A DNA stretch of 55,045 nucleotides from Streptantibioticus silvisoli (lineage in GTDB: Bacteria; Actinomycetota; Actinomycetes; Streptomycetales; Streptomycetaceae): assembly GCF_027947535.2 (NCBI RefSeq), contig NZ_JAAGKO020000056.1, forward strand, positions 1-55,045, written 5' to 3'. The notes under the pieces are model-generated. The model made no database searches, was not told the origin of the DNA, and was given only the letters and a program-made list of their open reading frames with translations. Below, in pieces: positions 8,395 through 51,602 of the stretch (positions are counted from its first letter, which is position 1; every line of letters begins with the position of its first letter). A program made the position numbers and the translations under genes.

Positions 8395-10151
8395 CGGGGC
8401 TCCGGGCGCAGGGCGGCAACGGCCCCGATGACGGTGATGGCCGGCGGCTGGATGGCGGCGGCCTCGGCGTCGGCGGCGATGCTGTCGAGGGTGCCGCGCA
8501 GCTGGCGCTGGTCGTGGTGGCCGGCGTCGGCGACGACGGCGGCGGGGGTGTCGCCGGGCAGGCCGGACGCGCGCAGTTTCGCGGTGATGGCGCCGAGGGT
8601 GGCGACGCCCATGAGGACGACGAGGGTGGTGCCGCCGCGGGCGAGGGCGCTCCAGTCGACGGTGCTGCCGGGGTGGTCGGGGGGCAGGTGGCCGGAGACG
8701 ACGGTGAAGCCCTGGGTGGAGCCGCGGTGGGTGACGGGGATTCCGGCGACGGCCGGGCCGGCGATGGCGCTGCTGACGCCGGGGCAGACGTCGACGGCGA
8801 TGCCGGCGGCGGCGCAGGCCTCGATCTCCTCGTAGCCGCGGCCGAAGACGAAGGGGTCGCCGCCCTTGAGCCGTACGACGCGCCGGCCGGCGCCGGCGTG
8901 TTCGACGAGCAGCCGGTTGATGGTCTCCTGCGGTGTGGCCGGCCCGCGCGGGTGCTTGGCGGCGTCGATCACGGTGACGTGCGGCGGGAGGTGGTCCAGC
9001 AGGCCGCGCGGGGCGAGGTGGTCGGTGACCACGACGTCGGCGCGCTGGAGGGCGATGAGGCCGTCGACGGTGATGCGCCCGTTCTGGCCGGGGCCGCCGC
9101 CGACCAGGGTGACGGTGCCGGCCGGCCGGACGTGCCGGGTGTCGTCGAGGGCGTCGAGCAGCAGGGCGGTGGTGTCGTCGTCGCGGACGCTGATCCGGAT
9201 CCAGCCGGGGCCGAGGCCGGGGAAGGTGTCGGCGCGGCGCACGGCGACGCCCCGGCCGCGCAGTTCGGCGTGCAGGCCGGGCCGGGCGGGGTGGCGGGTG
9301 AGCAGGAACGGGCCGACGGAGTCGGTGACCAGCTCGAAGCCGCGGTCGGTCAGCTGGGCGCGCAGTTTCTCGCGGGCCGCGGTCAGTTCGCGGGCGTGGT
9401 CGGCGGCCTGGGCGACGGCGTCCGGGGCGCAGCAGGCGACGGCGGCGGACAGGGCCGGCGCGGAGACCGACCAGCGCGGCTGGACCCGGGCGCAGGCGGC
9501 GACGGCCCCGGGGTCGCCGAGGAGGTAGCCGATGCGCAGTCCGGCCAGTCCCCAGGTCTTGGTGAGGGAACGGACCACGAGGACGCCGGTGAGGTCGGCG
9601 GCGCCGGCCAGGCTCTCGGGTTCGCCGGGCACGGCGTCCATGAACGCCTCGTCGACGAGCAGGACGCGGCCGGGCCGGCGCAGGGCGGTGAGCACCTCGC
9701 GGGGGTGCAGCGTGCCGGTGGGGTTGGTGGGGTTGCCGACGACGACCAGGGTGCAGGCGTCCGGTACGAGGTCGGCGTTCAGCGGCTGACCCGGTTCGAG
9801 GGGGATCCGGGTGATCGGCCAGCCGGCGGCGCGCAGGGCGGCCTCCGGTTCGGTGAACTGCGGGTGGACGACGGCGGCGTGACCGCGCGGCAGGCCGTGG
9901 GCGACGAGGGTGAACGCCTCCGCCGCCCCGGCGGTGACCAGCACCTCGCCGTCGGCGCGGCCGTGCCGGGCGGCGACGGCCGCGGTGGCGGCGCGCGGGT
10001 CGGGGTAGCTGTCGAGGCGGGCGCAGGCGGACAGCACGGCCGCGGTGAGCCACTGCGGCGGCGGCCCGGGGCGGACGTTGACGGCGAGGTCGAGCAGGCC
10101 GGGCCCGGTCTCGGCGTCGCCGTGGTGCAGCAGGTCGACGGCCGACGTCAT
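8391..10151 (-). CDS. cobC-cobA: fused threonine-phosphate decarboxylase-like (CobC) - uroporphyrinogen-III C-methyltransferase (CobA)
   Basis: The protein has 586 residues in one frame. Residues 1 to about 340 form a fold-type I PLP enzyme of the CobC/CobD group (LDLAVNVRPGPPPQWL, VVGNPTNPTGTLHP, LLVDEAFMDAVPGE) with the PLP lysine K198 in SLTKTWGLAGLRIGYLLG. It would supply the aminopropanol phosphate arm. Residues about 345-586 are SUMT/CobA (GTVTLVGGGPGQNGRIT, VVRLKGGDPFVFGRGYEE, CPGVSSAIAGPAVAGIPVTH), which makes precorrin-2. The fused activities act at opposite ends of the pathway, so the benefit is probably co-regulation. The start overlaps the cbiX stop (ATGA). Confidence 0.92.
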   Translation of the reverse strand: MTSAVDLLHHGDAETGPGLLDLAVNVRPGPPPQWLTAAVLSACARLDSYPDPRAATAAVAARHGRADGEVLVTAGAAEAFTLVAHGLPRGHAAVVHPQFTEPEAALRAAGWPITRIPLEPGQPLNADLVPDACTLVVVGNPTNPTGTLHPREVLTALRRPGRVLLVDEAFMDAVPGEPESLAGAADLTGVLVVRSLTKTWGLAGLRIGYLLGDPGAVAACARVQPRWSVSAPALSAAVACCAPDAVAQAADHARELTAAREKLRAQLTDRGFELVTDSVGPFLLTRHPARPGLHAELRGRGVAVRRADTFPGLGPGWIRISVRDDDTTALLLDALDDTRHVRPAGTVTLVGGGPGQNGRITVDGLIALQRADVVVTDHLAPRGLLDHLPPHVTVIDAAKHPRGPATPQETINRLLVEHAGAGRRVVRLKGGDPFVFGRGYEEIEACAAAGIAVDVCPGVSSAIAGPAVAGIPVTHRGSTQGFTVVSGHLPPDHPGSTVDWSALARGGTTLVVLMGVATLGAITAKLRASGLPGDTPAAVVADAGHHDQRQLRGTLDSIAADAEAAAIQPPAITVIGAVAALRPEPR

Positions 10152-35324: not shown

Positions 35325-35862
35325 GCGAATCCCTCTCAAGGACCTCTTGGGGCGCGCGTCGGCGTCACCCCGGCCGGGGCCGGGGCTAGGGGCGCGGCCT
35401 CGGACAGAACGGACGGTGGCCCACCGCCGCAGAGCGTAGCTACGCCGACATCCGGGAGCAATATGTTGGACACGATACGAAAATATTTGACATCTGGTCT
35501 GCAAAGACCGGGATCTAGCCGGGTTCGCGCAGCTTCTGGGTCGCCGAATGACGATCTTTACGCAAACGGCTTGCGTACGTCTTGCGGTCGCCGTCGTACG
35601 GGGGCGCGGCGGTGCGGCGGGCGACGCGGCGGGCGCGGCTGGGCGCAGGGGCGTGCTGGGGGCGGCGGGCATGGTGAGCCCGGCGGCGGTGCGCTGGGTG
35701 CGGCGGTCGCCGCGGTGGGCGTGGCTGCGCGCGAGGGCGCGGCGGGGCGACGCGATGGGCGCGAGGATGCGGCAGGGCGACGCGGTGGGCGCGGCCCGTG
35801 GTGAGCGCGGCGGCGCGGAAAAGCCCGGACACGGGGTGGACCGCGCTGGCAGGATGCCCGGC
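35325..35862. other. 540-bp intergenic region with an AT-rich control segment
   Basis: No convincing gene is present. 35455-35510 is strikingly AT-rich for this DNA (AATATGTTGGACACGATACG, then AAAATATTTGACATC) and includes a GGTCT-GCAA-AGACC hairpin at about 35497-35510. It lies roughly 130 bp upstream of the GH71/99-like gene and probably holds its promoter and operators. 35600-35830 is GC-rich repetitive sequence with recurring GGCGACGCG(A/G)TGGGCGCG. Confidence 0.5.
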
Positions 35863-36705
35863 GTGAGTGAACCGCCGGGTGCCACCGTCCCGCCGCCTTC
35901 GGTGCTCGACGCCTTCGGGGTGCGGGGTACCCCCGTCCCGCTGGCCGGCGGACAGGGACGCAGTGTCCGGGTCGGCGGGTACGTCTTCAAGCCCGCCGAC
36001 GGCGCCGAGGAGGAGGCCGAGTGGGCGGCCGGTGTGCTCGAAGGGCTCGGGGCCGGGCGCGGCTTTCGCGTGCCGGTGCCGCTGCGCGCCGCGGACGGGC
36101 GCGGTGTCGTCGACGGCTGGACGGCCGGCGGGTTCGTGGCCGGTGAGCCGGGACCGCGGGGGCGCTGGCGTGAGGTGATCGGCGCCGGCCGGGCCTTTCA
36201 CGCCGCCCTTCGCGGAGTGCCGCGGCCCGGCTTCCTGGCCCGGCGCAGCCATCCTTGGGCGGTGGCCGACCGGGTGGCGTGGGGCGAGCAGGAGGTCGAG
36301 GTGGTCGCCGGGCTGGCCGAACCGTTCGCGGCCCTGCGGGCGCTGAGGCGTCCGGTGGAACAGCCGGCCCAGCTGGTGCACGGCGATCTCACCGGCAACG
36401 TGCTCTTCGCCGCGGGCCGGGCGCCCGCCGTCATCGACTTCTCGCCCTACTGGCGGCCCGCGATCCTGGCGGAGGCCGTCGTGGTGGTGGACGGCCTGCT
36501 GTGGTTCGGCCTGCCGCCCGGCCTGCTGACCGGCGGGGGCGATCGCCGCGACTGGCGGCAGGTGCTGATCCGCGCGCTGATCTTCCGGCTCGTCGCGCAC
36601 AGCGAACTCACCGGTCCCTCGGGGTACGTTCCGGCGGTCGAGCGGCGGCGGTTCGCGCGGGCGGCCGAGGCCGTGGTGCGCGGATCGGCCGGGCCCGGTC
36701 GGTAG
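35863..36705 (+). CDS. kinase-fold protein (aminoglycoside phosphotransferase-like, TIGR02569-type)
   Basis: The 280-residue protein contains a probable catalytic loop QLVHGDLTGNVLFAAGRAPAV followed by VIDFSPYWRPAILAEAVVVV, which matches the HGD..N and D-F-S/D motifs of the APH/ChoK kinase fold. An N-terminal part with FKPADGAEEEAEWAAGVLEGL carries the likely ATP lysine in YVFKPAD. Actinobacterial relatives are conserved proteins of unknown substrate. The GTG at 35863 is preferred because CAGGAT lies 7 bp upstream (leaderless type); the ATG at 35854 is an alternative. It is convergent with the GH78-like gene and shows no operon partner. Confidence 0.72.
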   Translation: MSEPPGATVPPPSVLDAFGVRGTPVPLAGGQGRSVRVGGYVFKPADGAEEEAEWAAGVLEGLGAGRGFRVPVPLRAADGRGVVDGWTAGGFVAGEPGPRGRWREVIGAGRAFHAALRGVPRPGFLARRSHPWAVADRVAWGEQEVEVVAGLAEPFAALRALRRPVEQPAQLVHGDLTGNVLFAAGRAPAVIDFSPYWRPAILAEAVVVVDGLLWFGLPPGLLTGGGDRRDWRQVLIRALIFRLVAHSELTGPSGYVPAVERRRFARAAEAVVRGSAGPGR

Positions 36706-40142: not shown

Positions 40143-41381
40143 ATGGGGACCCTGCAGCACATGGCCGCCGCGGTGGTGCCGCGCAAGGGCCACGCGCGGC
40201 ACCTGGCTTTCGTCAACCTCGCCTACGCGGTGGGCAGGGGCGTCTTCCTCAGCGGAAGCGTCATCTACTTCACCACCGTCACCGGGCTGACCGCGACCCA
40301 GGTGGGCATCGGCACCTCCGCGGCGGCGCTGTCCGGCTTCGTCGCCTCGTTCCTGTTCGGCGTGCTGTCGGACCGGCTGGGCGCCAAGCGGGTGCTCGTG
40401 CTGCTGTTCGTGCTCCAGGCGGCCGGGTTCGCCCTGTACCCGGCCGTGCACGCGGTGGCGCCGTTCTACGCGCTGATCGTCGCCGTCGGCTTCATCGAGT
40501 ACGGCGTCGGACCGACCTTCGGCGCGTTCGTCGGCACGCTGATCGAGCCCGACGACCGCGTCCAGGTGCGGGCCAACCTGCGGTCGATGTTCAACATCGG
40601 CTTCAGCCTCGGCAGCGGCCTGACCGCGCTGGCCCTGCTCGGCGGCGGCACCTGGGTGCGGGCGCTGCCCTGGGGCGCCGGCGTCCTGCTGCTCGGCGCC
40701 GGGTTGCTGATCCTGCGCCTGCCGCGCGGCACCGGCGCGGTGACCGCCGGGCGGCCCCGGCGCTTCGGCGCGCTGCGCGACCTGCGGTTCGTGACCATCA
40801 CGGCGCTGTCCGCGCCGCTGGCGCTGCACGCCTCGATCATCCTGGTCGCGCTGCCGCTGTGGGCGGTGACCCGGACGCGGACCCCGCACGCGCTCATCCC
40901 GCTGCTGCTGGTGGCCAACACCGTCTTCGTCATCGTCTTCCAGGTCGCCGCCAGCCGCGGCGCGGCCACCGTCGCCGGCGCGGCCCGGCTGGCGCAGCGC
41001 TCGGGGTTCTGGCTGGCGGCGGCCTGCGGGGCGGCGGCCGTCGCCGCCTACGGCGACGCGGTCGTGGCCGCGGCCGTGCTCGGCGTGGCGATGCTGCTGT
41101 TCACCCTGTCCGAACTCCAGCAGTCCGCCTCGGGCTGGGGCCTGGCCCACGGGCTGGCACCGGAGGACGCGCAGGGCGAGTACCTCGGGACGTTCAACCT
41201 GCACATCGTCGCCCAGGGCGTCCTCGGGCCGGGCGTGGTGTCGGCCGTCACCATCTCCTTCGGGGTGTGGGGCTGGGTCGGGGTCGCCGCGGTGGTGGTC
41301 GCCGCCGGTCTGCTGATCGTGCCGGTCGCCGCGGCGGCGGAACGCCGTGCGGCGGTCACGCTGACGGGCGAACTCGTATGA
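40143..41381 (+). CDS. MFS transporter
   Basis: The 412-residue protein has about twelve hydrophobic segments. The loop between segments 2 and 3 carries GVLSDRLGAKRVL, the MFS motif A (usually GxLaDrxGrkr), and a cytoplasmic loop separates the two halves (about 195-210, RLPRGTGAVTAGRPRR). It starts with ATG after AAGGAACGAAAACGGC. It is followed after 48 bp by the first transketolase gene, so it probably belongs to the same operon. A role in exporting the product of the neighbouring peptide locus is plausible but is inferred from position only. Confidence 0.85.
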   Translation: MGTLQHMAAAVVPRKGHARHLAFVNLAYAVGRGVFLSGSVIYFTTVTGLTATQVGIGTSAAALSGFVASFLFGVLSDRLGAKRVLVLLFVLQAAGFALYPAVHAVAPFYALIVAVGFIEYGVGPTFGAFVGTLIEPDDRVQVRANLRSMFNIGFSLGSGLTALALLGGGTWVRALPWGAGVLLLGAGLLILRLPRGTGAVTAGRPRRFGALRDLRFVTITALSAPLALHASIILVALPLWAVTRTRTPHALIPLLLVANTVFVIVFQVAASRGAATVAGAARLAQRSGFWLAAACGAAAVAAYGDAVVAAAVLGVAMLLFTLSELQQSASGWGLAHGLAPEDAQGEYLGTFNLHIVAQGVLGPGVVSAVTISFGVWGWVGVAAVVVAAGLLIVPVAAAAERRAAVTLTGELV

Positions 41382-41429
41382 CGTACGGCCGGCTGTCCGG
41401 ATTCTTCGTGAGGTTGGAGCCTTCCTTCG

Positions 41430-42116
41430 ATGACTGAGCCCAGGTTCGAGGATCTGCACGGCCTGATGGCCGCGATGACCGGCGACGAGAAGCACACGAC
41501 CGCGGCGACGTCGACCCTGGACGTGCTGTGGGTGCTCTACGACCGGGTGCTGCGGGTGGACCCCTCGATGGCCGAGGACCGCGACCGGTTCTACCTGTCC
41601 AAGGGGCACGGGCCGATGGCCTACTACGCGGTGCTGGCCGCCAAGGGGTTCATCGACCCGGCCGAGTTCGAGCGGTTCGGCGCCTACCCCTCACCGCTGG
41701 GGCACCACCCGGACCGGGTCCTGGTACCGGGCGTGGAGATCTCCAGCGGATCGCTCGGGCACGGCCTGCCGCTGGCGGTCGGCACCGCGCTGGGGCTGCG
41801 CGCGCGGGGGCTGACCCGGTCGCGGATCTGGGTGCTGCTGGGCGACGGCGAGCTCGACGAGGGCTCCAACCACGAGGCGATCGCCTACGCGGCGCGGGCC
41901 GGCCTGGACCGGCTCAACGTGGTCGTCATCGACAACGACTCGGCGAGCCACGGCTGGCCCGGCGGTCTTGAGCAGCGCTTCGCCGTCGAGGGCTGGTCGA
42001 CCGCGCGGGTCGACGCCGGGGACCACGACGGGCTGGAGAAGGCCTTCGCCGCCCACACCCCGGGCCGGCCCGCCCTGGTGGTGGCCGAGGTGGAGGAACG
42101 CAGCACCAGTCACTGA
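41430..42116 (+). CDS. transketolase N-terminal (TPP-binding) subunit
   Basis: The 228-residue protein matches the first third of transketolases: RFYLSKGHGPMAYYAVLAAK, ISSGSLGHGLPLAVGTALGL, and the diphosphate/Mg2+ motif LLGDGELDEGSNHEA (GDG at 138-140), then VVVIDNDSASHG. The other half is encoded by the next gene. Split transketolases also occur in sugar metabolism and in several natural-product pathways, where they transfer two-carbon units to unusual acceptors. It lies downstream of the MFS gene and 88 bp before its partner. The substrate is unknown. Confidence 0.9.
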   Translation: MTEPRFEDLHGLMAAMTGDEKHTTAATSTLDVLWVLYDRVLRVDPSMAEDRDRFYLSKGHGPMAYYAVLAAKGFIDPAEFERFGAYPSPLGHHPDRVLVPGVEISSGSLGHGLPLAVGTALGLRARGLTRSRIWVLLGDGELDEGSNHEAIAYAARAGLDRLNVVVIDNDSASHGWPGGLEQRFAVEGWSTARVDAGDHDGLEKAFAAHTPGRPALVVAEVEERSTSH

Positions 42117-42204
42117 CGCCGCGCGGCGCAGCGCCGCCCCCGGGCCGGGACGGCGCTGTCGCGGCCCCGCCGATCACCACGTCGCGTACCGAAGGAGAAC
42201 CCCC

Positions 42205-43119
42205 ATGGCCGGGATCATGCGTGAGCGCTTCGTCGAAGTGACGACGGAACTGCTCGCCACCCATGACCGCCTGGCGCTGCTGACGGCCGACCTCAGCGCC
42301 AAGCTCTTCGCCGGCGCGCGGCAGGAGTATCCGGACCGGGTGCTCAACCTGGGCATCCGCGAGCAGTTGCTCATCGGGGTCGCCGGGGGGATGGCGCTGG
42401 CCGGGATGCGGCCGATCGCCCACAGCTTCGCGCCCTTCCTGATCGAGCGGCCCTTCGAGCAGATCAAGCTGGACCTCAACCACCAGGACGTCGGCGCGAT
42501 CCTGGTCAGCGCCGGCGCCTCCTACGACATCGCCGGCGGCGGCCGGTCCCACCAGTCGCCGGGCGACGTGGCGCTGCTGTCGACGCTGCCGGGCTGGACC
42601 GTCCACGTGCCCGGCCACGCCGACGAGGCCGAGGCGCAGCTGCGCGAGGCGGCGGCCGGCGACGGGCTGGTGTACATCCGGCTGTCGAACCAGGCCAACG
42701 AACGGGCCCACGGCCTGGCGGGCGGTGGCGGCCACGGGTTCCGGGTGCTGCGGCGGGGGTCGGCCGGCACGGTCGTCGCGGTCGGGCCGCTGGCCGACAC
42801 GGTGCTGGCGGCGACCGGGGGGCTCGACGTCACGGTGCTCTACGCCGGCACGGTCCGGCCGTTCGACGCGGCGACCCTGCGGGCGGTGCTGGCCGACCAG
42901 GACGAGGCCCGCGTGGTGCTCGTCGAGCCGTACCTGGCCGGCACCTCGGTCCCGCAGGTCGCCGCCGCGCTCAGCGACCGGCCGCACCGGGTGCTGGGAC
43001 TCGGCGTCGGCCACGAGGAGGTGCGGCACTACGGCACCCCGCGCCAGCACGCCATCGCGCACGGCCTGGGCAGCGCCGGCCTGCGGCTGAGCATCATCGA
43101 ATTCCTCGGTACCGCCTGA
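42205..43119 (+). CDS. transketolase C-terminal (pyrimidine-binding plus C-terminal) subunit
   Basis: The 304-residue protein has LLTADLSAKLFAGARQEYPD and VLNLGIREQLLIGVAGGMAL; E53 in GIREQ corresponds to the glutamate that activates TPP. AHSFAPFLIERPFEQIKLDL and GGRSHQSPGDVALLSTLPGW follow, and a C-terminal domain runs from about residue 185 (VAVGPLADTVLAATGG). GAAGGAGAA is a good ribosome site before the ATG at 42205. With the preceding gene it forms a complete two-subunit TPP enzyme. It is followed by a separate promoter for the small peptide gene. Confidence 0.9.
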   Translation: MAGIMRERFVEVTTELLATHDRLALLTADLSAKLFAGARQEYPDRVLNLGIREQLLIGVAGGMALAGMRPIAHSFAPFLIERPFEQIKLDLNHQDVGAILVSAGASYDIAGGGRSHQSPGDVALLSTLPGWTVHVPGHADEAEAQLREAAAGDGLVYIRLSNQANERAHGLAGGGGHGFRVLRRGSAGTVVAVGPLADTVLAATGGLDVTVLYAGTVRPFDAATLRAVLADQDEARVVLVEPYLAGTSVPQVAAALSDRPHRVLGLGVGHEEVRHYGTPRQHAIAHGLGSAGLRLSIIEFLGTA

Positions 43120-43130
43120 TCCCCTTTTCC

Positions 43131-43268
43131 ACCGGCGCCGGTATTCCGCCGTACGCCGCCTGCCGCCAGACCGCACACCGTCAATGATCTGAAACCCCAT
43201 CAGGTAATGCGTGCGCCCCGGAATTCACCTCCCGGCGGCGCTTTCCGGGCTGGGCCGATCCGCATTAC
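43131..43268. other. inverted repeats between transketolase and peptide genes
   Basis: The 260-bp spacer has the palindrome ACCGGCGCCGGT (43131-43142) shortly after the transketolase stop, possibly a weak terminator. GTAATGCG (43204-43211) and CGCATTAC (43261-43268) pair perfectly across 49 bp just upstream of the peptide promoter and may be a regulator site. Function is not shown. Confidence 0.4.
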
Positions 43269-43298
43269 GGCACCCCATGTGAAGGTCCACCGAATGCC

Positions 43299-43328
43299 TT
43301 GACCCCCCGTAAGAACCGCGGTTAGCGT
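43299..43328 (+). promoter_or_regulatory. promoter of the small peptide gene
   Basis: TTGACC (43299-43304) and TAGCGT (43323-43328) are 18 bp apart, a good primary-sigma promoter. It gives an RNA start near 43335 and a leader of about 45 nt. This separates the peptide/YcaO genes from the transketolase operon as a second transcription unit. Confidence 0.7.
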
Positions 43329-43380
43329 GGCGGCGTCCGCTCCGGTTCTCGCCGGTCAATTCCAGCAGAGGGAGAAGTGC

Positions 43381-43506
43381 ATGGCCATCAACGACAAGCT
43401 CCAGGCCACCAACGACGAGGCGATCATCGCCGCCGCCGACGCCGAGATCGAGGAACTGTCGGACCACTCGCGTCCGATGGTCGTCTCGGAGATCAACGAG
43501 GCCTGA
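43381..43506 (+). CDS. 41-residue peptide, candidate RiPP precursor
   Basis: The ATG is preceded by GAGGGAGAA. The peptide reads MAINDKLQATNDEAIIAAAD, then AEIEELSDHSRPMVVSEINE and a final A. The first part is acidic and helical in character, as in RiPP leader peptides. The second part has the only His (H29), Arg (R31) and Pro (P32), and a C-terminal MVVSEINEA. There is no Cys, Gly or aromatic residue. It is first in a unit with two cupin-type proteins, an S9 peptidase, YcaO and TfuA, and is separated from them by a strong hairpin, as is common for precursors. No known precursor family is recognised; core boundaries are inference. Confidence 0.75.
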   Translation: MAINDKLQATNDEAIIAAADAEIEELSDHSRPMVVSEINEA

Positions 43507-43526
43507 TCGCCTATTTCATGAGTTTG

Positions 43527-43556
43527 TTCTGGGGGCGGTTTCCGCCGCCCCCAGAA
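43527..43556 (+). terminator. strong hairpin between the peptide gene and the modification genes
   Basis: A perfect 12-bp stem, TTCTGGGGGCGG (43527-43538) with CCGCCCCCAGAA (43545-43556), has a six-base loop. It starts 20 bp after the peptide stop. No U-run follows, as usual in actinomycetes. It probably acts as a partial terminator or 3' stabiliser, so that precursor mRNA exceeds mRNA for the downstream enzymes. Confidence 0.8.
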
Positions 43557-43616
43557 TGAATTCCGATGGCCGGACAGGACCGCACCGTCCGGAACGACAC
43601 TCCCTAAGGATCGTCT

Positions 43617-44483
43617 GTGGGTACTGAGCATCCCCTTGCTCGCCTCATCGATGAGGTGGACCTGCTGGGCACCTACTGGAACAAGAAGCACGGCTTGTTC
43701 AAGCAGGCGTCCCCGACGGAGGGCCTGATCGACGAGGCCGCTATTCAGAGCATGCTCGACACGGGTCTGCTCAGATGGCCCTATTTCACCCTGCTGAAAG
43801 AGGGCCAGCAGCCGGAGATATCCGCGTTCACGAAGGCGCGGAACGTGTCCGGGCAGGCGGTCAAGGGCTTCGCGGACCCGGCGCGGATACGCAAGCACCT
43901 CGCGTCCGGCGCCACGATGAAGATGAGCCAGCTCGAGGACTGGCACCTTCCGATCCGCTCGGTGATGCGGGAGATCGAGGAGCGGCTGCCGGCCGAGCTC
44001 AAGGCGTACATCTTCTACACGCCGCGCGACAGCACGGGCATGCTCCCGCACCGGGACGGCTCGCACGTGCTGGCCGTGCAGATCGCCGGCGCGAAGGAAT
44101 GGCGGATCTACAACTCCGCCGAACAGATCGACGCCCGCTCCGGGCTGAACGTGGACGTCGACAGCCACAGCGACTCCTTCGTCATGGAGCCCGGTGACGT
44201 CCTCTACCTGCCGCACGGCGTGCCGCACGTGGCGACCGCCCGCGGCGGAACGTCGCTGCACCTGACGTTCACCATCACCGAGCCGACCCCGCTGGACCTG
44301 GTCGAGTCGCTGATGACGCTGTTCTCCGACGCCGAGGGCGAGTGGCTGGACCAGGGCCTGGGCTCGGCGCTCCAGGACGAGGCGGCGGCCGTCAACAAGG
44401 CGCTGCTGGGCTTCCTCGACCGGGTCGACACCGGGCTCCTGGTCGAGACCGCGGTGGCCACGATGCGCGACAGGACGGTGTGA
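43617..44483 (+). CDS. JmjC/cupin-4 type 2-oxoglutarate-Fe(II) oxygenase, candidate peptide hydroxylase
   Basis: The 288-residue protein resembles ribosomal-oxygenase-type JmjC proteins. The iron site is intact: H145 and D147 in LPHRDGSHVLAVQIAG and H204 in YLPHGVPHVATA, followed by LHLTFTITEPTPLDLVESLM. Known relatives hydroxylate Arg or His in ribosomal proteins. The adjacent peptide has exactly one His and one Arg, two residues apart, which makes it the obvious candidate substrate. The GTG at 43617 has AAGGA seven bases upstream. The next gene, a degenerate paralogue, begins 4 bp after its stop. Confidence 0.82.
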   Translation: MGTEHPLARLIDEVDLLGTYWNKKHGLFKQASPTEGLIDEAAIQSMLDTGLLRWPYFTLLKEGQQPEISAFTKARNVSGQAVKGFADPARIRKHLASGATMKMSQLEDWHLPIRSVMREIEERLPAELKAYIFYTPRDSTGMLPHRDGSHVLAVQIAGAKEWRIYNSAEQIDARSGLNVDVDSHSDSFVMEPGDVLYLPHGVPHVATARGGTSLHLTFTITEPTPLDLVESLMTLFSDAEGEWLDQGLGSALQDEAAAVNKALLGFLDRVDTGLLVETAVATMRDRTV

Positions 44484-44487
44484 GGCG

Positions 44488-45363
44488 ATGACCGGCGTTG
44501 ACATCTCCGGCGACCAGGACCGGGCCGGCCGCACCGGGACGCCGGCGCGGCTGGCCGACCTGGTCGGCGACCTCGAACCCTTCACGGCCGGGGTCCGGGG
44601 CCGGCTGGCGCGTTCGTACCGCTGCGAGGCCGCACCCCGGCTGCTGACCCCGGCGGACATCTGGACGCGGTTCGACTGCGGGCTGCTGGTGGCCCCCTAC
44701 TTCGGCGTGCTGCTGAACGGGGTGGCCGTACCGCTGGCGGACGTCACGGTGACCCGGGTCGTCCTCAAGCGGCGGATGGCGGCGTACGCGCGGGCGGCCG
44801 CCGTCCGGGAGCGGTTCGACACCGGCCACACGGTCCGGCTGGCCCGGCCCGACCACTGGCACCCGGGCATCAAGGACCTGGTCGCCGCGCTGCGCGACGA
44901 ACTGCGGGCCGAGGCCGGCTGCGAGGCGCTGCTCAGCCCGCCGGGCGCCGCGGGCGCGCGGGCCGGGGGCGGGGCCGGCGAGGGCGAGACGTTCCTGCTC
45001 CAGCTCGACGGGCGGGCGACGGCCGTCGTCGGTGCGGCCGGCGAGTCGTTCACGCTGCGGCCGGGCGACGTCCTCTACGTCCCCGGCGGCCGGCCGTACA
45101 CCACGACGGCCGGCGACGGCGGCTGCCTGCACCTGGCGGTCACCGTCCAGCAGCCCACCCCGCGCGACCTCGCCGAGCTGGCCCTCGCCCGCTTCCTCCA
45201 GGGCCCCCGGACCGAGGAGGTCGCGGGCACCCACCACTTCATGACCATCGACGAGAAGGTCGGCTGGCTGCGCACCGAACTCGCCGCGCACCTGGCCGCG
45301 CAGGACGACGCCGAACTGGTGGCGGAAGCGGTGAAGATCCGCCGGCGCACCGGCCAGGCCTAG
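44488..45363 (+). CDS. degenerate JmjC/cupin-like paralogue lacking the iron ligands
   Basis: The 291-residue protein is clearly related to the preceding oxygenase (FDCGLLVAPYFGVLLNG against LDTGLLRWPYFTLLKEG; LHLAVTVQQPTPRDLAELA against LHLTFTITEPTPLDLVESL). The HxD region is replaced by a Gly/Ala-rich stretch (PPGAAGARAGGGAGEGE), and the distal His by Tyr in VPGGRPYTTTA. It therefore should not bind iron. It may be a non-catalytic partner or a peptide-binding scaffold for the active oxygenase or the YcaO/TfuA pair. This is inference; no separate peptide-recognition domain gene was found in the locus. Confidence 0.75.
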   Translation: MTGVDISGDQDRAGRTGTPARLADLVGDLEPFTAGVRGRLARSYRCEAAPRLLTPADIWTRFDCGLLVAPYFGVLLNGVAVPLADVTVTRVVLKRRMAAYARAAAVRERFDTGHTVRLARPDHWHPGIKDLVAALRDELRAEAGCEALLSPPGAAGARAGGGAGEGETFLLQLDGRATAVVGAAGESFTLRPGDVLYVPGGRPYTTTAGDGGCLHLAVTVQQPTPRDLAELALARFLQGPRTEEVAGTHHFMTIDEKVGWLRTELAAHLAAQDDAELVAEAVKIRRRTGQA

Positions 45364-45367
45364 CCGC

Positions 45368-47482
45368 ATGGCCACGGTGACCGAGGACGGCGGGCCGGGC
45401 GCGGCGGCGCTGGAGGTCCTGCTCGCCCAGCCGCGGGTGCGCACGGCGCACCGGCTGGGCGACGGCCTGCTCGTCGAGGCCGACCTGCGCCGCCCCGGCC
45501 GCGCCGACCCGGTGCCCTACGTCCTGGGCTACGGACCGGCGCCGGCCACCGCCGACCGGCCGCCCGGCGACGCCGGTAGGCGCACGGCCCCGCACGGCAC
45601 CGCGACGGTGACCGCGCCCGACCGCGCCCCGGCGCAGCCGGTGTTGGAGTACGCCTACGCCGGTGCCTCGTCGGTGACCGTCACCGGTGACGGCGGCCAC
45701 CTGTTCCTGTCCGACATGCGCCCGGGCACCGGCCGGCCGCGCGGCCACACCGGGCGCGCCCTGTGGCGGCACCGGCCGGGACCGCGCCGTGCGCCCGAAC
45801 TCGTGCTGAGCGCCCCGCGCGGCCTGCTGTCCTACGCGGCGGCGTCCTCCACGGCGGTCGCCGCCGCCTGGCTGCGGTCCGGGGCACGCTCGCTCGCGGA
45901 GGACCTGCGGGCGCGGGAGGCGGCGGCACCGGACGCGCCGACCGCCACGCTGGTCGGCGGCGACCTGTGGCCGCGTTCGATGTACCACGAGGCCGGCGAG
46001 ACGGTCCGCCTGCTGTGGTCGGGACCGCCGGCGGAGAGCGAAGGGGCGGACGGGACACGGCTGTTGACGCCGCCGCTGGACCAGGACATGCGGCTGACCG
46101 GCGAACTGGCGCTGACCCCCGACGGTCTGCGGTGCGCGGCGGGCGTGGTCCGCTTCCTGCCCGGCGGCCACCGCCGGCACGGCCAACTGCTGTTCCCGGT
46201 ACGGGATCCGGCGGACGCGACGGCGGTCTGGGCACCGGACGACGACCTCACCGAGGCCGTCGCGGCGCCGGACGGGGCCTGGTTCGCGTGCACGGCGGAA
46301 CGGATCGCGGCCCCGGGGCGCGGACCGCGGCAGGAGGTCGTCCTGCTCGCCGCCGACGGCTCCCGGCTGGAGCGGGCCGCGCCCGGCCACCGCGACTGGC
46401 TGCGCCCGCGGTCGTGGGCCGCGCCCGACACCCTGCTGTGCGTCGGTGAGCGCGACGGCCGGCGGCGTCTGTGGCGGGTGCGGCCCGGTGACGGCCGCGC
46501 CGAGCCGATCGAGGTGGCCGGTTCGGTCCTGGCGGTGACCGGCGTGCCCGGCGAGGCGGTCGTCGTCCGGTCGGGCATCGACCTGCCGCCCGAGGTCGTG
46601 TCGGTCCCGCTGGCGTCGGCCGGCCGCCCCACCGGCCCGGCCGGTGCCCGCCGGCTGCTGGCACCGGCGGCGGCCGCCGCACCGACCGGACGGATGGAAC
46701 GCCTCACCTACCGGGCGCCGGACGGATCGGTGTGGAGCAGCTGGCTGTGCCTGCCGCGGACCGGCGCCGACCGGCCGCTGCCGGTGCTGGTGTGGTGCCA
46801 CGGCGGCCCGCTCAGCAGCTGGACCGACTGGTCGTGGCGCTGGAACCCGTGGCCGTTCGTCGCCGAGGGCTACGCCGTCCTCATGCCCGACCCGCCCTTG
46901 TCGGTCGGCTACGGGCAGCCGGCGGTCGAACGCGGCTGGGGGCACTGGACCTCGCAGGTCGCCGCGGTGGCGGCGGCCCAGGTCCGGTCGGCACTGGCCC
47001 GGCCGGACCTGGACGCCGGCCGGGTCGCGGCGATGGGCGGCAGCTTCGGCGGCTACCTCGCCCTGGCGCTGGGCACGCTGCTGCCCGAGGTGCGGCTGAT
47101 CGCCAGCCACGCCGGCTGGGCCGACTTCGCCGCGGTGGCCCGGGTGTGCGACCTGCACTGGCACTGGCTGCGCGAGTACGGCCCGGTGGACACCGCCCCC
47201 GGCTACGCCCGCGAGAGCCTGCGGCTGGCGGCGATCGACCCCGGGGTGCGCGTGCTGCTGTCCCACGGCTGCGAGGACACCCACGTGCCGATGGGCGAGT
47301 CGCGGGCGATTCACCGGTCGCTGGAGACCCGGGGGGTCGACGTGCGGCTCATGCTCCTGCCGGACGAGCGGCACACCATCGGCAAACCGGCCAACGTGAC
47401 CGCCTGGTACCGGTGGGTCCTGGACGCCTGCCACACCGTTCTGGGCCCCCGCTCCACGAGTAAGGAACCGTGCACACCATGA
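45368..47482 (+). CDS. S9-family (prolyl oligopeptidase-type) serine peptidase
   Basis: The 704-residue protein has a beta-propeller-like N-terminal part (about 1-440) and a C-terminal alpha/beta-hydrolase domain. The catalytic set is visible: S559 in MGGSFGGYLAL, D637 in SHGCEDTHVP and H669 in DERHTIGKP. VLVWCHGGPLSSWTDWSWRW forms the oxyanion region. No signal peptide is present, so it acts in the cytoplasm. S9 peptidases serve as leader peptidases in some RiPP pathways. The neighbouring peptide has a single proline (SRP/M), a possible cleavage site. It starts 4 bp after the degenerate cupin and overlaps the YcaO start. Confidence 0.88.
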   Translation: MATVTEDGGPGAAALEVLLAQPRVRTAHRLGDGLLVEADLRRPGRADPVPYVLGYGPAPATADRPPGDAGRRTAPHGTATVTAPDRAPAQPVLEYAYAGASSVTVTGDGGHLFLSDMRPGTGRPRGHTGRALWRHRPGPRRAPELVLSAPRGLLSYAAASSTAVAAAWLRSGARSLAEDLRAREAAAPDAPTATLVGGDLWPRSMYHEAGETVRLLWSGPPAESEGADGTRLLTPPLDQDMRLTGELALTPDGLRCAAGVVRFLPGGHRRHGQLLFPVRDPADATAVWAPDDDLTEAVAAPDGAWFACTAERIAAPGRGPRQEVVLLAADGSRLERAAPGHRDWLRPRSWAAPDTLLCVGERDGRRRLWRVRPGDGRAEPIEVAGSVLAVTGVPGEAVVVRSGIDLPPEVVSVPLASAGRPTGPAGARRLLAPAAAAAPTGRMERLTYRAPDGSVWSSWLCLPRTGADRPLPVLVWCHGGPLSSWTDWSWRWNPWPFVAEGYAVLMPDPPLSVGYGQPAVERGWGHWTSQVAAVAAAQVRSALARPDLDAGRVAAMGGSFGGYLALALGTLLPEVRLIASHAGWADFAAVARVCDLHWHWLREYGPVDTAPGYARESLRLAAIDPGVRVLLSHGCEDTHVPMGESRAIHRSLETRGVDVRLMLLPDERHTIGKPANVTAWYRWVLDACHTVLGPRSTSKEPCTP

Positions 47483-48756
47483 CGATCACTTCGCTGCGTC
47501 CGCCCTCCAGCGCCCCGCGCGAACACTGGTTCCCCCCGCCGTCGCGGACACCGGCCACCGCCAGCGGCACGTCGCTGCGCACCCGCACCCTGGAGCAGAC
47601 CGAGGCGCTGGCACGGGCCTGCCTGGACCGCTGCGGCATCACGCGGATCGCGGAGGTCACCGACCTGGACGTGCTGGGCATCCCGGTCTTCCACACCATC
47701 CGCCCCGGCGCGGCCCCCGGGCTCAACACGGTCACCAGCGGCAAGGGGATCACCGCGCAGGCGTCCCGGGTCTCCGCGCTGATGGAGGCCATCGAACGCA
47801 CCTGGTGCGAACCGCCCGCCGCGGACCTGCCCCTGCTGGCGTCGTACGCCGAACTGCGCGCGCGGGACGTGCCGGTGCTCGACCCCCGGCGTCTGGTCCT
47901 GCGCCGCGGCCACACCTGGACCCAGGACGCGCCGATCTCGTGGTGGCCGGTGCGCGAGCTGTTCAGCGACACCGAGGTGCTGATCCCCGCGCTCGCGGTC
48001 TTCACCCCCTACGCCCGCGAATGCGGCATGTTCCGCTCGAACACCATCGGCCTCGCGGTCGGCAACAGCCCCCAGGAGGCGTTGCTGCACGGCCTGCTGG
48101 AGGCGATCGAGCAGGACTGCACGGCGTTCGGCGAGACGCTGCGGCAGGGCCGGCGCATCCGGCTGGAATCGCTGCCGCCGGTGGCCGCCGAGCTGGTCGG
48201 GCGCTTCCAGCGGATGGGCGTCAGCGTGCAGGTCTTCGGCTACGCCAACGTGGTCGGCGTACCGACGGTGTTCGCCACCACCGACGACACGCACGCCGAG
48301 GACGGGATGCTCATCAACGGCGGCGCCGGCTGCCACCCCGACCCGGTCGTGGCGGTCACCCGGGCGCTGACCGAGGCGGCCCAGTCCCGGCTGGCCGTCA
48401 TCTCCGGTTCCCGCGAGGACCTCGACAGCCAGGCGTACCGGCGGCACGCGTCGTACGACGCGATGCGCGAGATGCTCGCGACCTGGAGCGCGGATCGGGA
48501 GGAGTGCGACTTCGGCGACCTGCCGGACGAGGGCACCGGAACGACGGAGGGCGACCTGCGCGAGGTCCTCGCCGGGGTGGAACGGGCCGGGCTTCCGCTG
48601 ATCTTCGCCGCCGAACTCGCCCCGGACGACCTGCCGTTCTCGGTGACGAAGGTCGTCGTTCCGGGACTGGAGGTCTACCACCACGACCCGGCGAGACTGG
48701 GTACGCGCCTGCACCGCGAGATGGTCCGGGCCGGAATGGCGAGGCCGCTGTCATGA
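47479..48756 (+). CDS. YcaO-domain protein, probable peptide-backbone thioamide synthase component
   Basis: The 425-residue protein has the YcaO core and its ATP/Mg2+ glutamates: E103 and E106 in SALMEAIERTW, and E208/E211/Q212 in HGLLEAIEQDC, plus VTRALTEAAQSRLAVISGSR. YcaO enzymes use ATP to activate backbone amides; with Cys/Ser/Thr they give azolines, and with TfuA they give thioamides. Here TfuA is the next, overlapping gene, and there is no cyclodehydratase C-protein or dehydrogenase. The C-terminus (ARPLS) lacks the PxPxP ending of azoline-forming YcaOs. The ATG at 47479 overlaps the peptidase stop (ATGA); a GTG at 47470 is less likely. Confidence 0.9.
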   Translation: MTITSLRPPSSAPREHWFPPPSRTPATASGTSLRTRTLEQTEALARACLDRCGITRIAEVTDLDVLGIPVFHTIRPGAAPGLNTVTSGKGITAQASRVSALMEAIERTWCEPPAADLPLLASYAELRARDVPVLDPRRLVLRRGHTWTQDAPISWWPVRELFSDTEVLIPALAVFTPYARECGMFRSNTIGLAVGNSPQEALLHGLLEAIEQDCTAFGETLRQGRRIRLESLPPVAAELVGRFQRMGVSVQVFGYANVVGVPTVFATTDDTHAEDGMLINGGAGCHPDPVVAVTRALTEAAQSRLAVISGSREDLDSQAYRRHASYDAMREMLATWSADREECDFGDLPDEGTGTTEGDLREVLAGVERAGLPLIFAAELAPDDLPFSVTKVVVPGLEVYHHDPARLGTRLHREMVRAGMARPLS

Positions 48757-49478
48757 CCGACTCCAGCACCCTGGCCGGCACGGCGGACGAGGCGGCCACC
48801 ACCGGGATCGTGCTGTTCACCGGCCCGTCCCTGCGCCCGGAGGACCTGACCGCGCTGAGCGCCCTGGCCGCGACGGCCGGCCGCGAACTGCGGCTGGAGG
48901 CACCGGTACGCCGGCACGATCTGCTCGACCTGGCGGAGTCCGCGCCGCACCACCACATCGTCATGCTGGACGGCGAGTTCGGCCAGCGCCTGTCGGTCAG
49001 CATCACCGAGGTGCGCGCGGTGCTGGCCGCCGGGCAGTCGCTGGCCGGCGCCTCCTCGATGGGCGCCCTGCGCGCCGTGGAGTGCCGCACCCTCGGCATG
49101 ACCGGCAGCGGCTGGGTCTTCGAGCAGTACCTGTCGGGCGCGATCGAGTCCGACGGCGACGTGGCCCTGCTCTACGATCCGCAGGACTACCTGCCGGTGA
49201 CCGTTCCGCTGGTCAACGTCCGCTGGCTGCTGGCCGAGAAGCAGCGCCAGGGGCTGCTGACGGCCGATGTCGGCGCCACCGCCCTGCGGACCGCCCACGC
49301 CGTGCACTTCCGCGACCGGCGCCCCTCGCTCCTGCTGCGCCAGTGGCGACGGGAGCTGCCCACCGCCGCGGTCGAGGTGCTGGAGCCCGAACTGGCCCCG
49401 GAACGCCGGGACTCGTGGGACCGCAAACGGCTCGACGGCATCGAGGCGGTGCGTTCGGCACTGGGCCTGGACACCTGA
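48753..49478 (+). CDS. TfuA-like protein, YcaO partner
   Basis: The 241-residue protein has the TfuA core: GIVLFTGPSLRPEDLTAL near the start, then HIVMLDGEFGQRLSVSITEV and GQSLAGASSMGALRAVECRT. GWVFEQYLSGAIESDGDVALLY and VPLVNVRWLLAEKQRQGLL follow. TfuA proteins work with YcaO in backbone thioamidation (thioviridamide-type RiPPs and methanogen methyl-coenzyme M reductase) and are thought to deliver sulfur. The start overlaps the YcaO stop (ATGA). It is the last gene of the peptide unit; a low-complexity spacer follows. Confidence 0.9.
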   Translation: MTDSSTLAGTADEAATTGIVLFTGPSLRPEDLTALSALAATAGRELRLEAPVRRHDLLDLAESAPHHHIVMLDGEFGQRLSVSITEVRAVLAAGQSLAGASSMGALRAVECRTLGMTGSGWVFEQYLSGAIESDGDVALLYDPQDYLPVTVPLVNVRWLLAEKQRQGLLTADVGATALRTAHAVHFRDRRPSLLLRQWRRELPTAAVEVLEPELAPERRDSWDRKRLDGIEAVRSALGLDT

Positions 49479-49625: not shown

Positions 49626-50168
49626 TCAGCGGCCGGGTTCGCCGTCGGCCAGGTTGCGTTCCCAGAAGATCTCGTCGCGCCAGGCACCGTCCATGAAGAT
49701 GTGCGCGTGGGCGATGCCCCAGGAGGAGAAGCCGTTGTTCTTCAGCACCCGGTGCGAGGGGAGGTTGTCGGTCTGGGTGTGCGCCTCGGCGCGGCGCAGG
49801 CCGAGTTCGCCGGTCATCACCCGCAGGGTCAGGCCGACCGCGCGGGTGGCGTGGCCCTGCCCCTGGAACGGGGTCGCCACCCAGTAGCTGAGGAAGCCCT
49901 TGCGCAACGGCCCGCGGGAGATGCTGCTGACCGCGACCTGCCCGACGACCTCCCCGTCGGCCACGATGACACCGGGCCAGGCCGAGCCGGCGCTGTGCGT
50001 GGCCAGCAGCTGTTCGATGCGGCCGGCCTGGTGGGAGGGGGTGTCGAACCCCTCGGGCCGGGCCGGCTGCCACCGGGCGAACTCCTTCGCGTCGCGGGCG
50101 AAGTGGCCCGCCAGCGCGGCGGCGTCAGCCACCTCGACCAGTCGTACGGACGTGCGCGACGGCGTCAC
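49626..50168 (-). CDS. GNAT acetyltransferase, RimJ/RimL type
   Basis: The 180-residue protein has the acetyl-CoA loop SYWVATPFQGQGHATRAVGLTL in its middle. RRAEAHTQTDNLPSHRVLKNNGF follows, with the conserved Asn-x2-Ser and the C-terminal motif. RimJ/RimL-type members acetylate N-termini, amino acids, antibiotics or peptides; the substrate here cannot be told. The GTG at 50168 has AAGGAG about 9 bp upstream. It is convergent with the YcaO/TfuA unit, so a link to that pathway (for example self-protection) is possible but unsupported. Confidence 0.85.
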   Translation of the reverse strand: MTPSRTSVRLVEVADAAALAGHFARDAKEFARWQPARPEGFDTPSHQAGRIEQLLATHSAGSAWPGVIVADGEVVGQVAVSSISRGPLRKGFLSYWVATPFQGQGHATRAVGLTLRVMTGELGLRRAEAHTQTDNLPSHRVLKNNGFSSWGIAHAHIFMDGAWRDEIFWERNLADGEPGR

Positions 50169-50609: not shown

Positions 50610-51602
50610 TCAGCGCCCGTAGTCGGTGGGGTGCGCGGGGGTCTTCGCCGGGTCGCGTTCGACGATCGGGCCGAGGATGTCGTCGATCCGCTTCACCACC
50701 TCGTCGGCCAGCTCGATCCCGGACGCCGCGGCGGTCTCGGCGATCTGCTCCGGCCGGCTGGCGCCCACGATCGCGCAGGACACGTTCGGGTTCCGCAGCA
50801 CCCAGGCGAGCGCCAGCTGCGGCATCGTGATGCCCAACTCGTCGGCCAGCGGCGTCAGTTCACTCACCCGCCGCAACACGTCCTCGGCCAGGGCGCCGGC
50901 CGCGAACTGGCTGCGCGCCGGACCGTCGGCCCGCGATCCGGTGGGCAGCGGCTCACCGGCCCGGTACTTGCCGGTCAACAGCCCCTGGGCCAGCGGCGAC
51001 CACACCATCTGGCCGACCCCCTCCCGCTCGCACAGCGGCCCGACCTCGGCCTCGATGACCCGCCAGACCATGTTGTACTGCGGCTGGTTGGAGATGATCC
51101 GGTCGAGCCCGAGGCGGCCGGCGATCTCCAGCGCCGCCGTGATCTGCTCGGTGGTCCACTCCGAGACGCCGACGTAGAGCACCTTGCCCTGCCGGACCAG
51201 GTCGTCGAACGCCCGCAGCGTCTCCTCCAGCGGGGTCCGGGCGTCGAACCGGTGCGCCTGGTAGACATCGATGTAGTCGGTTTTCAGCCGCTTCAGCGAC
51301 CCGTGCGCCGCCTCCATGATGTGCTTGCGCGACAGCCCCCGGTCGTTCGCCCCGGGGCCGACCGGGGAGCAGACCTTGGTGCAGATCTCGACCGATTCCC
51401 TGCGCACCCCCGACAGGACCCGGCCGAGCACCTCCTCGGCCAGCGAGCCGCCGTACACGTCAGCGGTGTCGAACGTCGTGATCCCCTGCCGCAGCGCCTC
51501 CTGGGCTACCTCGGCCGCCGACCGCTCGGTGGTACTGATCCAGCTGCCGTAGGCGATCTCGCTGACCCGCAGACCGCTCCTGCCCAGTGTCCGGTGTCTC
51601 AT
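50610..51602 (-). CDS. aldo/keto reductase
   Basis: The 330-residue TIM-barrel oxidoreductase has a complete catalytic tetrad: D45 and Y50 in FDTADVYGG, K76 in CTKV and H117 in DVYQAHRFD. The NADPH-binding C-terminal motif AIVGASRPEQIAE is present. It resembles the potassium-channel beta-subunit/YghZ-like group. The substrate is unknown. Its ATG is at 51602 and its upstream region is the long repeat-rich spacer shared with the phosphatase gene. Confidence 0.9.
   Translation of the reverse strand: MRHRTLGRSGLRVSEIAYGSWISTTERSAAEVAQEALRQGITTFDTADVYGGSLAEEVLGRVLSGVRRESVEICTKVCSPVGPGANDRGLSRKHIMEAAHGSLKRLKTDYIDVYQAHRFDARTPLEETLRAFDDLVRQGKVLYVGVSEWTTEQITAALEIAGRLGLDRIISNQPQYNMVWRVIEAEVGPLCEREGVGQMVWSPLAQGLLTGKYRAGEPLPTGSRADGPARSQFAAGALAEDVLRRVSELTPLADELGITMPQLALAWVLRNPNVSCAIVGASRPEQIAETAAASGIELADEVVKRIDDILGPIVERDPAKTPAHPTDYGR

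Follow-up and report, generated by a model that had tools for sequence, protein, structure and literature searches.

A rare YcaO-TfuA gene cluster with paired JmjC proteins and a split transketolase, probably specifying a modified peptide, in Streptantibioticus silvisoli

The peptide gene and its operon

On a contig of Streptantibioticus silvisoli (NZ_JAAGKO020000056.1), analyzed here over its 55,045 nucleotides (nt) and referred to as the window, a gene for a peptide of 41 amino acids (aa) heads an operon encoding two JmjC-type proteins (JmjC1 and JmjC2), an S9 peptidase, YcaO, and TfuA, with genes for an MFS transporter and both halves of a split transketolase upstream on the same strand. 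Pfam matches and coordinates bear out this gene content, which had been proposed in an earlier reading of the DNA (the original prediction). The tight spacing that it described from JmjC1 through TfuA was also recovered, with 4 nt each between JmjC1 and JmjC2 and between JmjC2 and S9, followed by 4-nt overlaps of S9 with YcaO and of YcaO with TfuA (codons checked); an alternative GTG start of YcaO lies 9 nt upstream of the called one. Adjacent ycaO and tfuA genes and a conserved small precursor gene, the two marks of a YcaO-TfuA cluster for ribosomally synthesized and post-translationally modified peptides (RiPPs), are both present. The locus is probably a rare RiPP cluster, in which YcaO-TfuA and a JmjC hydroxylase would act on the conserved tail of the 41-aa precursor.

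The peptide, MAINDKLQATNDEAIIAAADAEIEELSDHSRPMVVSEINEA, is free of Cys, as had been claimed. Its conserved co-occurrence with YcaO/TfuA and the JmjC pair, on which the original prediction was to stand or fall, was found in 3 other genomes, where homologues with 59-66% identity occupy the same position: Streptomyces olivochromogenes A53 (L004), G053 (L005), and G102 (L037). Nonsynonymous (dN) and synonymous (dS) divergence was compared for L037 and L005 and not computed for L004; relative to L037, codons differ 10, 5, and 16 times at the first, second, and third position, with a dN of 0.22 and a dS of 0.72. Neither Pfam nor NCBIfam, both of which were scanned, holds a profile matching the peptide. 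Furthermore, 8 of 10 other peptides, including all 6 belonging to this family, were unmatched in NCBIfam, and the remaining 2, both from loci outside the family, gave weak matches to an FDLD lanthipeptide model (0.004) and MelC1 (0.065). Membership in a known precursor family was therefore rejected.

The strong hairpin predicted behind the peptide gene was confirmed in the window as a 20-pair stem, with none of 200 shuffles equaling the z-score of the 90-nt stretch (-5.65). GC-rich hairpins follow the peptide gene in all 13 loci that were folded (12 of the family and L053; 9 of them without shuffles), with a z-score of -4.59 in L037. The window's hairpin has no T-run, and a terminator scan of the window did not list it. 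The further claim that the peptide gene has its own promoter stood in part: a pair TTGACC-17-TTAGCG (or -18-TAGCGT) lies 82 nt before the ATG and a similar pair was found in L004, using a loose pattern with no chance control, but a strict sigma-70 scan returned no promoter at the peptide gene, so that a promoter is at most suggested.

YcaO together with TfuA carries out backbone thioamidation in thioviridamide-type RiPPs and in methanogens. Over the aligned parts, the YcaO and TfuA of the window are 35% and 38% identical, respectively, to the pair of L057 (genome G106), whose peptide ends SNKEWQE and which also carries a 29% match to JmjC1 about 2 kb past its tfuA. The conserved TfuA stretch GASSMGALRA is common to both pairs. 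The nearest NCBIfam models of YcaO and TfuA are McrA-glycine thioamidation proteins, both matched below their cut-offs. By homology, the product is expected to be thioamidated and hydroxylated.

The cluster extends past TfuA, as the GNAT acetyltransferase and the aldo/keto reductase, neither of which the original prediction listed, belong to it as well (Table 1). To the left of the MFS gene lie an alpha-rhamnosidase-like gene, an alpha-1,3-glucanase-like gene, and a run of cobalamin biosynthesis genes, so that the MFS gene probably marks the left edge.

Table 1. Features of the cluster in the window, with supporting matches and identities to related loci.
Feature	Coordinates	Strand	Evidence
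MFS transporter, probable exporter	40143..41381	+	PF07690 4.5e-18; 70% L004, 67% L005, 40% and opposite strand L037
Split transketolase, N-terminal half (tktN)	41430..42116	+	PF00456 1.3e-24; 76-81% L004, L005, L037, L041
Split transketolase, C-terminal half (tktC)	42205..43119	+	PF02779 4.9e-26; 78-79% L005, L037, L041
Promoter-like pair TTGACC...TTAGCGT	43299..43328	+	loose pattern; absent from strict scan
41-aa peptide, probable RiPP precursor, core around RPMVVSEINEA	43381..43506	+	conserved homologues
20-pair hairpin 3' of peptide gene	43520..43563	+	z=-5.65 (90-nt stretch); hairpins likewise placed in related loci
JmjC1, PF08007 oxygenase, HRD...H intact	43617..44483	+	E=1.6e-20; 288 aa
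JmjC2, JmjC1 paralogue without metal ligands	44488..45363	+	PF08007 E=1.5e-5
S9 (prolyl oligopeptidase family) peptidase	45368..47482	+	6.6e-22; GxSxGG, D, H motifs present
YcaO	47479..48756	+	1.3e-74; E/ER, EQ, Q-R motifs present
TfuA	48753..49478	+	1.3e-31
GNAT acetyltransferase, cluster member	49626..50168	-	PF13302 5.3e-17; 56-67% L004, L005, L037, L041; 36% L042
Aldo/keto reductase, in part of the family	50610..51602	-	PF00248 5.5e-71; 75-76% L004 and L005 only

Related loci and the conserved peptide tail

Related loci were fetched as stretches of 16-21 kb each, and the absence of a gene refers to that stretch. Among 394 family genomes, JmjC1 matches of 70% were found in G053 and G102, with all others at 48% or less. 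L005 matches the window in all nine genes from MFS through TfuA and in their order. In L004, the peptide, JmjC1, JmjC2, S9, YcaO, and TfuA genes are followed, past GNAT and the reductase, by MFS and tktN, the fetched stretch stopping short of the place where tktC would be expected; because both genes lie on the other side of the operon there, they stay with the cluster despite rearrangement. L037 has all nine except a close MFS, the neighbor there being 40% identical and encoded on the opposite strand. It also encodes a third JmjC protein of 372 aa, which has a longer C-terminus, and, beside TfuA, a CmcI-like methyltransferase (third JmjC/methyltransferase region 7531-9453), as well as a luciferase-like protein. 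A more distant locus, L041 (genome G221), encodes tktN and tktC (76-78%), JmjC1 (44%), JmjC2 (27%), YcaO (52-54%), TfuA (49-50%), and a peptide ending GDAPMLIENIDFA; no S9 match was found in its fetched stretch, where an M13 peptidase gene adjoins tktN. GNAT relatives occur in 5 of the 16 other family loci (see Table 1), with no match at E<=1e-5 in the other 11.

The cluster is rare. In a class-wide sample, YcaO searched against 394 genomes matched only the window's own genome (G000), G102, and three at 35-39% (L070, L071, and G106), with no further close member, and L070 and L071 gave no JmjC match at E<1e-8. JmjC1, searched class-wide against 316 genomes, matched G000 and G102 only.

A wider set of loci combines the peptide and JmjC genes with or without YcaO-TfuA, radical SAM, AAC(3), GNAT, and transketolase. 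L038, L039, and the plasmid locus L075 encode the peptide, JmjC1, JmjC2, a distant YcaO (30-33%), S9, and a TfuA-domain protein (about 425 aa or longer) that is 61% alike among the three; L038 and L075 additionally carry AAC(3), GNAT, and M16 peptidase genes. L040 and the plasmid loci L076-L078 contain the peptide, both JmjC proteins, GNAT, MFS, and AAC(3). The latter three lie on Streptomyces plasmids, and a Mycolicibacterium plasmid (L079) carries a peptide, both JmjC genes, and AAC(3); all four represent compact plasmid-borne relatives. The plasmid collection yielded 15 matching records, of which the best 5 lack transketolase. Since the peptide and the JmjC pair persist where YcaO-TfuA is not seen, the family's more stable components are the JmjC proteins and the core motif.

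Further arrangements were observed as well. In L042 (6654-13319), a single peptide and JmjC1 are accompanied by two matches each to YcaO and TfuA. L046 (4263-10045), L050, and L051 combine YcaO, TfuA, and JmjC1 with a peptide ending RPGI[IL]CEIA(x), set apart by its core Cys, and L046 also encodes a radical SAM-SPASM protein.

The C-terminal motif P-x-[VLTIM]-[VILM](1-2)-[SECN]-[ENQ]-I, followed by at most 4 residues, ends exactly one frame in 16 of 17 family loci, the exception being L079, and none of 7,023 frames in 27 control loci; as the 16 peptides themselves served to define the pattern, the control count is the independent figure and the matches themselves are not proof. The scan left out L052, whose contig starts about 440 bases before ycaO, the repeat fetches L047 and L072-L074, and loci below 5,000 bases. 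The Pro and Ile common to the 16 matching cores would be the first candidate modification sites.

Beyond these loci, small peptides with a hydrophobic stretch and the tail GCG[DE]CYPDV[IM] were seen in L043 (8344-10606), L048 (8323-10344), L044, and L045; in L043 and L048, two JmjC genes follow the peptide, and neither YcaO nor TfuA of the window has a match there. They possibly constitute another JmjC-pair peptide family. L058-L065 (e.g., L058, 8806-9959) have a single JmjC gene (36-38% to JmjC1) and a 43-aa FDLD lanthipeptide-type peptide with the tail RP[WYFL]CI, beside a large gene.

The JmjC pair and the split transketolase

The original prediction described one intact and one iron-dead JmjC protein, and this holds for the window: JmjC1 retains HRD...H, and in the alignment JmjC2 has 0 of 3 metal ligands. 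The triad of JmjC2 is not intact in any of the 5 loci with a transketolase pair (window, L004, L005, L037, and L041), with L037 retaining the first His, L041 the Asp, and L005 being gapped there. It is intact in all 8 paired-JmjC loci without transketolase (L038, L039, L040, and L075-L079; absence of transketolase checked). In a tree of 32 JmjC proteins, into which JmjC1 of L039 and L041 was entered trimmed to the matching part, JmjC2 separates from the rest (99/96), and the metal-less proteins (99/95) and the other JmjC2 proteins (100/97) each form a group; the long branches of L041_j2 (2.69) and L037_j3 (2.79) make their placement unsure. With the metal-less proteins forming one group, the tree shows that the site was lost once, in the transketolase lineage, which makes the coincidence one event and not five, consistent but unreplicated. 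JmjC2 as a decaying pseudogene was rejected, as the frame is open with 269-292 aa in all 5 loci and the proteins form that single group. Being full length in all of them, the metal-less JmjC2 is evidently retained for some purpose. Its structural model is poor (mean predicted local distance difference test (pLDDT) score 56.3) and supports no claim.

JmjC1 resembles the ribosomal oxygenase NO66 by sequence (2.1e-12) and by predicted fold.

Transketolase relatives (E<=1e-50) occur in 229 of 394 related genomes, and copies outside the cluster are 59-69% identical among the matches listed, compared to 74-79% among the cluster tktC copies themselves. The window's genome contains a second split pair (G000:C24:43701-45396; L082, 9699-11396), which is 64% identical and lies beside a MerR regulator. 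The nearest solved chain to the tktC half is the split transketolase of Carboxydothermus. Across the two halves, the motifs for the cofactor, the catalytic Glu, and the donor site are of ordinary type. By these comparisons, the cluster transketolase is a dedicated paralogue of the split transketolase present in those genomes and seems to be a functional enzyme that the cluster has taken over.

Proposed pathway, alternatives, and known systems

In the proposed pathway, the 41-aa peptide would be a precursor whose leader is acidic and whose core, around RPMVVSEINEA, lies at the C-terminus. YcaO with TfuA is predicted to exchange a backbone amide oxygen for sulfur in this core; we propose thioamidation because the pair is akin to that of L057 and because, according to PMC13174530, the YcaO-TfuA pair of the std cluster of Streptomyces thermodiastaticus, which has the SNKEWQE motif, thioamidates Asn. 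JmjC1 would use Fe(II), 2-oxoglutarate, and O2 to hydroxylate a side chain of the core, as suggested by its likeness to NO66 and by the precedent of BipG, a JmjC protein reported in PMC12707348 to hydroxylate Orn of a RiPP precursor in biphenomycin biosynthesis. JmjC2, keeping the JmjC sequence and not the metal site, would most likely hold the peptide or JmjC1. Judging by their families, S9 would trim and MFS would export the product; GNAT might acetylate it or protect the host, and the split transketolase might add or supply a two-carbon ketol unit, together with the aldo/keto reductase in loci that carry it.

Several observations weigh against such a thioamidated, hydroxylated RiPP. No YcaO or TfuA match was found in the stretches seen of L040 and L076-L079, so that thioamidation is not essential to the wider family. 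No RiPP recognition element protein was identified among the cluster proteins, although no search aimed at it was made. The JmjC1 model is of middling quality (mean pLDDT 67.7), the peptide's dN/dS relative to L005 is weakly low (dN 0.22 and dS 0.35 over the last 32 codons), and the hairpin z-scores in L004 (-2.20) and L005 (-2.05) are modest.

The role of the transketolase leaves room for more than one reading. It is quite conceivable, with a chance somewhat short of even, that it makes a small metabolite, coupled later or needed for supply, and never touches the peptide. Between the window and L041, its halves are 76-78% identical, compared to about 52-54% for YcaO, 44% for JmjC1, and 27% for JmjC2, as expected with constant small-molecule substrates, and its motifs look like those of ordinary transketolases. 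However, the scan of the cluster proteins turned up neither a ligase nor an adenylating enzyme that could perform such a coupling, and the JmjC2 metal site was lost in exactly the lineage with the transketolase pair. A bolder conjecture, which we consider unlikely, is that the transketolase acts on the peptide itself, its thiamine-dependent C-C bond formation adding a two-carbon ketol to a core carbonyl, with JmjC2, a former second hydroxylase, scaffolding the peptide; a literature search found no such chemistry on a RiPP.

Other readings concern the peptide and its modification. YcaO proteins give several product types, and the core contains a Ser in the window, L004, and L005 (Glu in L037), so another product, such as an amidine or azoline, could be formed instead of a thioamide; however, the presence of TfuA, the GASSMGALRA stretch common with the L057 pair, and the McrA-glycine thioamidation proteins as nearest, if below cut-off, models make this improbable. 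That the peptide is a carrier or regulator, as peptide carriers exist in PEARL pathways and the acidic C-terminus is the best conserved part, is more improbable still, given that the cluster proteins scanned include neither an aminoacyl-tRNA ligase nor an adenylation domain, that the gene stands first in the JmjC operon and is followed by a hairpin, and that the motif persists with very different enzyme sets. Finally, there is very little to recommend the transketolase as a resistant second copy of the product's target, for while a paralogue pair exists elsewhere in the genome and the cluster copy recurs at 5 loci, another copy in just 229 of 394 genomes would be odd for a vital target, and related peptide clusters lack transketolase.

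A RiPP cluster with probable backbone thioamidation joined to JmjC hydroxylation would offer a defined core motif in a rare family small enough for in vitro rebuilding. Since the transketolase pair coincides with a second JmjC protein that has lost its metal site, one chemistry may have replaced another. For genome mining, a new anchor could be JmjC genes whose neighbor encodes a peptide ending in a P-x-hydrophobic-...-I tail.

Thioviridamide-type thioamitides have a core Cys, a flavin decarboxylase, and kinase-like proteins. The window shares with them a precursor with YcaO and TfuA but differs in its Cys-free peptide and in having no flavin decarboxylase or kinase-like protein among the cluster proteins. 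The original prediction of a class unlike thioviridamide stands as regards the cluster itself, but a kinase-like phosphotransferase gene of the APH family does lie 3.4 kb upstream of it (35548-36705); the stretches fetched for L004, L005, L037, L041, and L042 contain no counterpart (E<=1e-6). With the std cluster (PMC13174530), the window has in common a small precursor, YcaO-TfuA, an iron oxygenase, and MFS; the std cluster has an MNIO with a partner, a peptidase-carbamoyltransferase, and the core SNKEWQE, compared to JmjC proteins, S9, transketolase, and RP...SEINEA here. The core RPMVVSEINEA and the lack of an MNIO among the cluster proteins scanned place the window outside the std family. 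Thiovarsolins likewise have a precursor, YcaO, TfuA, and MFS, but PMC6511847 gives them a repeating core, the heme-oxygenase-like VarO, ATP-grasp, and amidinotransferase, where the window has JmjC, S9, and transketolase.

Two surveys bear on novelty. PMC6511847 covers 229 TfuA proteins and 30 peptide networks of four or more; PMC8120280 covers 613 gene cluster families and mentions a prolyl endopeptidase (S9) in a TfuA cluster. The words 'cupin' and 'transketolase' are absent from both main texts and 'JmjC' from that of PMC8120280. Survey supplements excepted, our literature search found no report that combines YcaO-TfuA with JmjC, or a transketolase with a RiPP, and JmjC and YcaO appeared together only in a study of RRE domains. 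This RiPP family is apparently undescribed, although members may appear in the supplements of both surveys.

Among characterized JmjC proteins, the ribosomal oxygenases NO66, MINA53, and YcfD (PF08007) are like JmjC1 in sequence and fold, but their chains span 373-489 aa compared to 288 aa, and the JmjC1 gene lies beside that of a small peptide. BipG, whose sequence was not compared with JmjC1, provides the functional parallel of a JmjC oxygenase acting on a RiPP precursor; its cluster, as listed in PMC12707348, has no YcaO-TfuA, unlike the window, where JmjC1 and YcaO-TfuA would act on one core.

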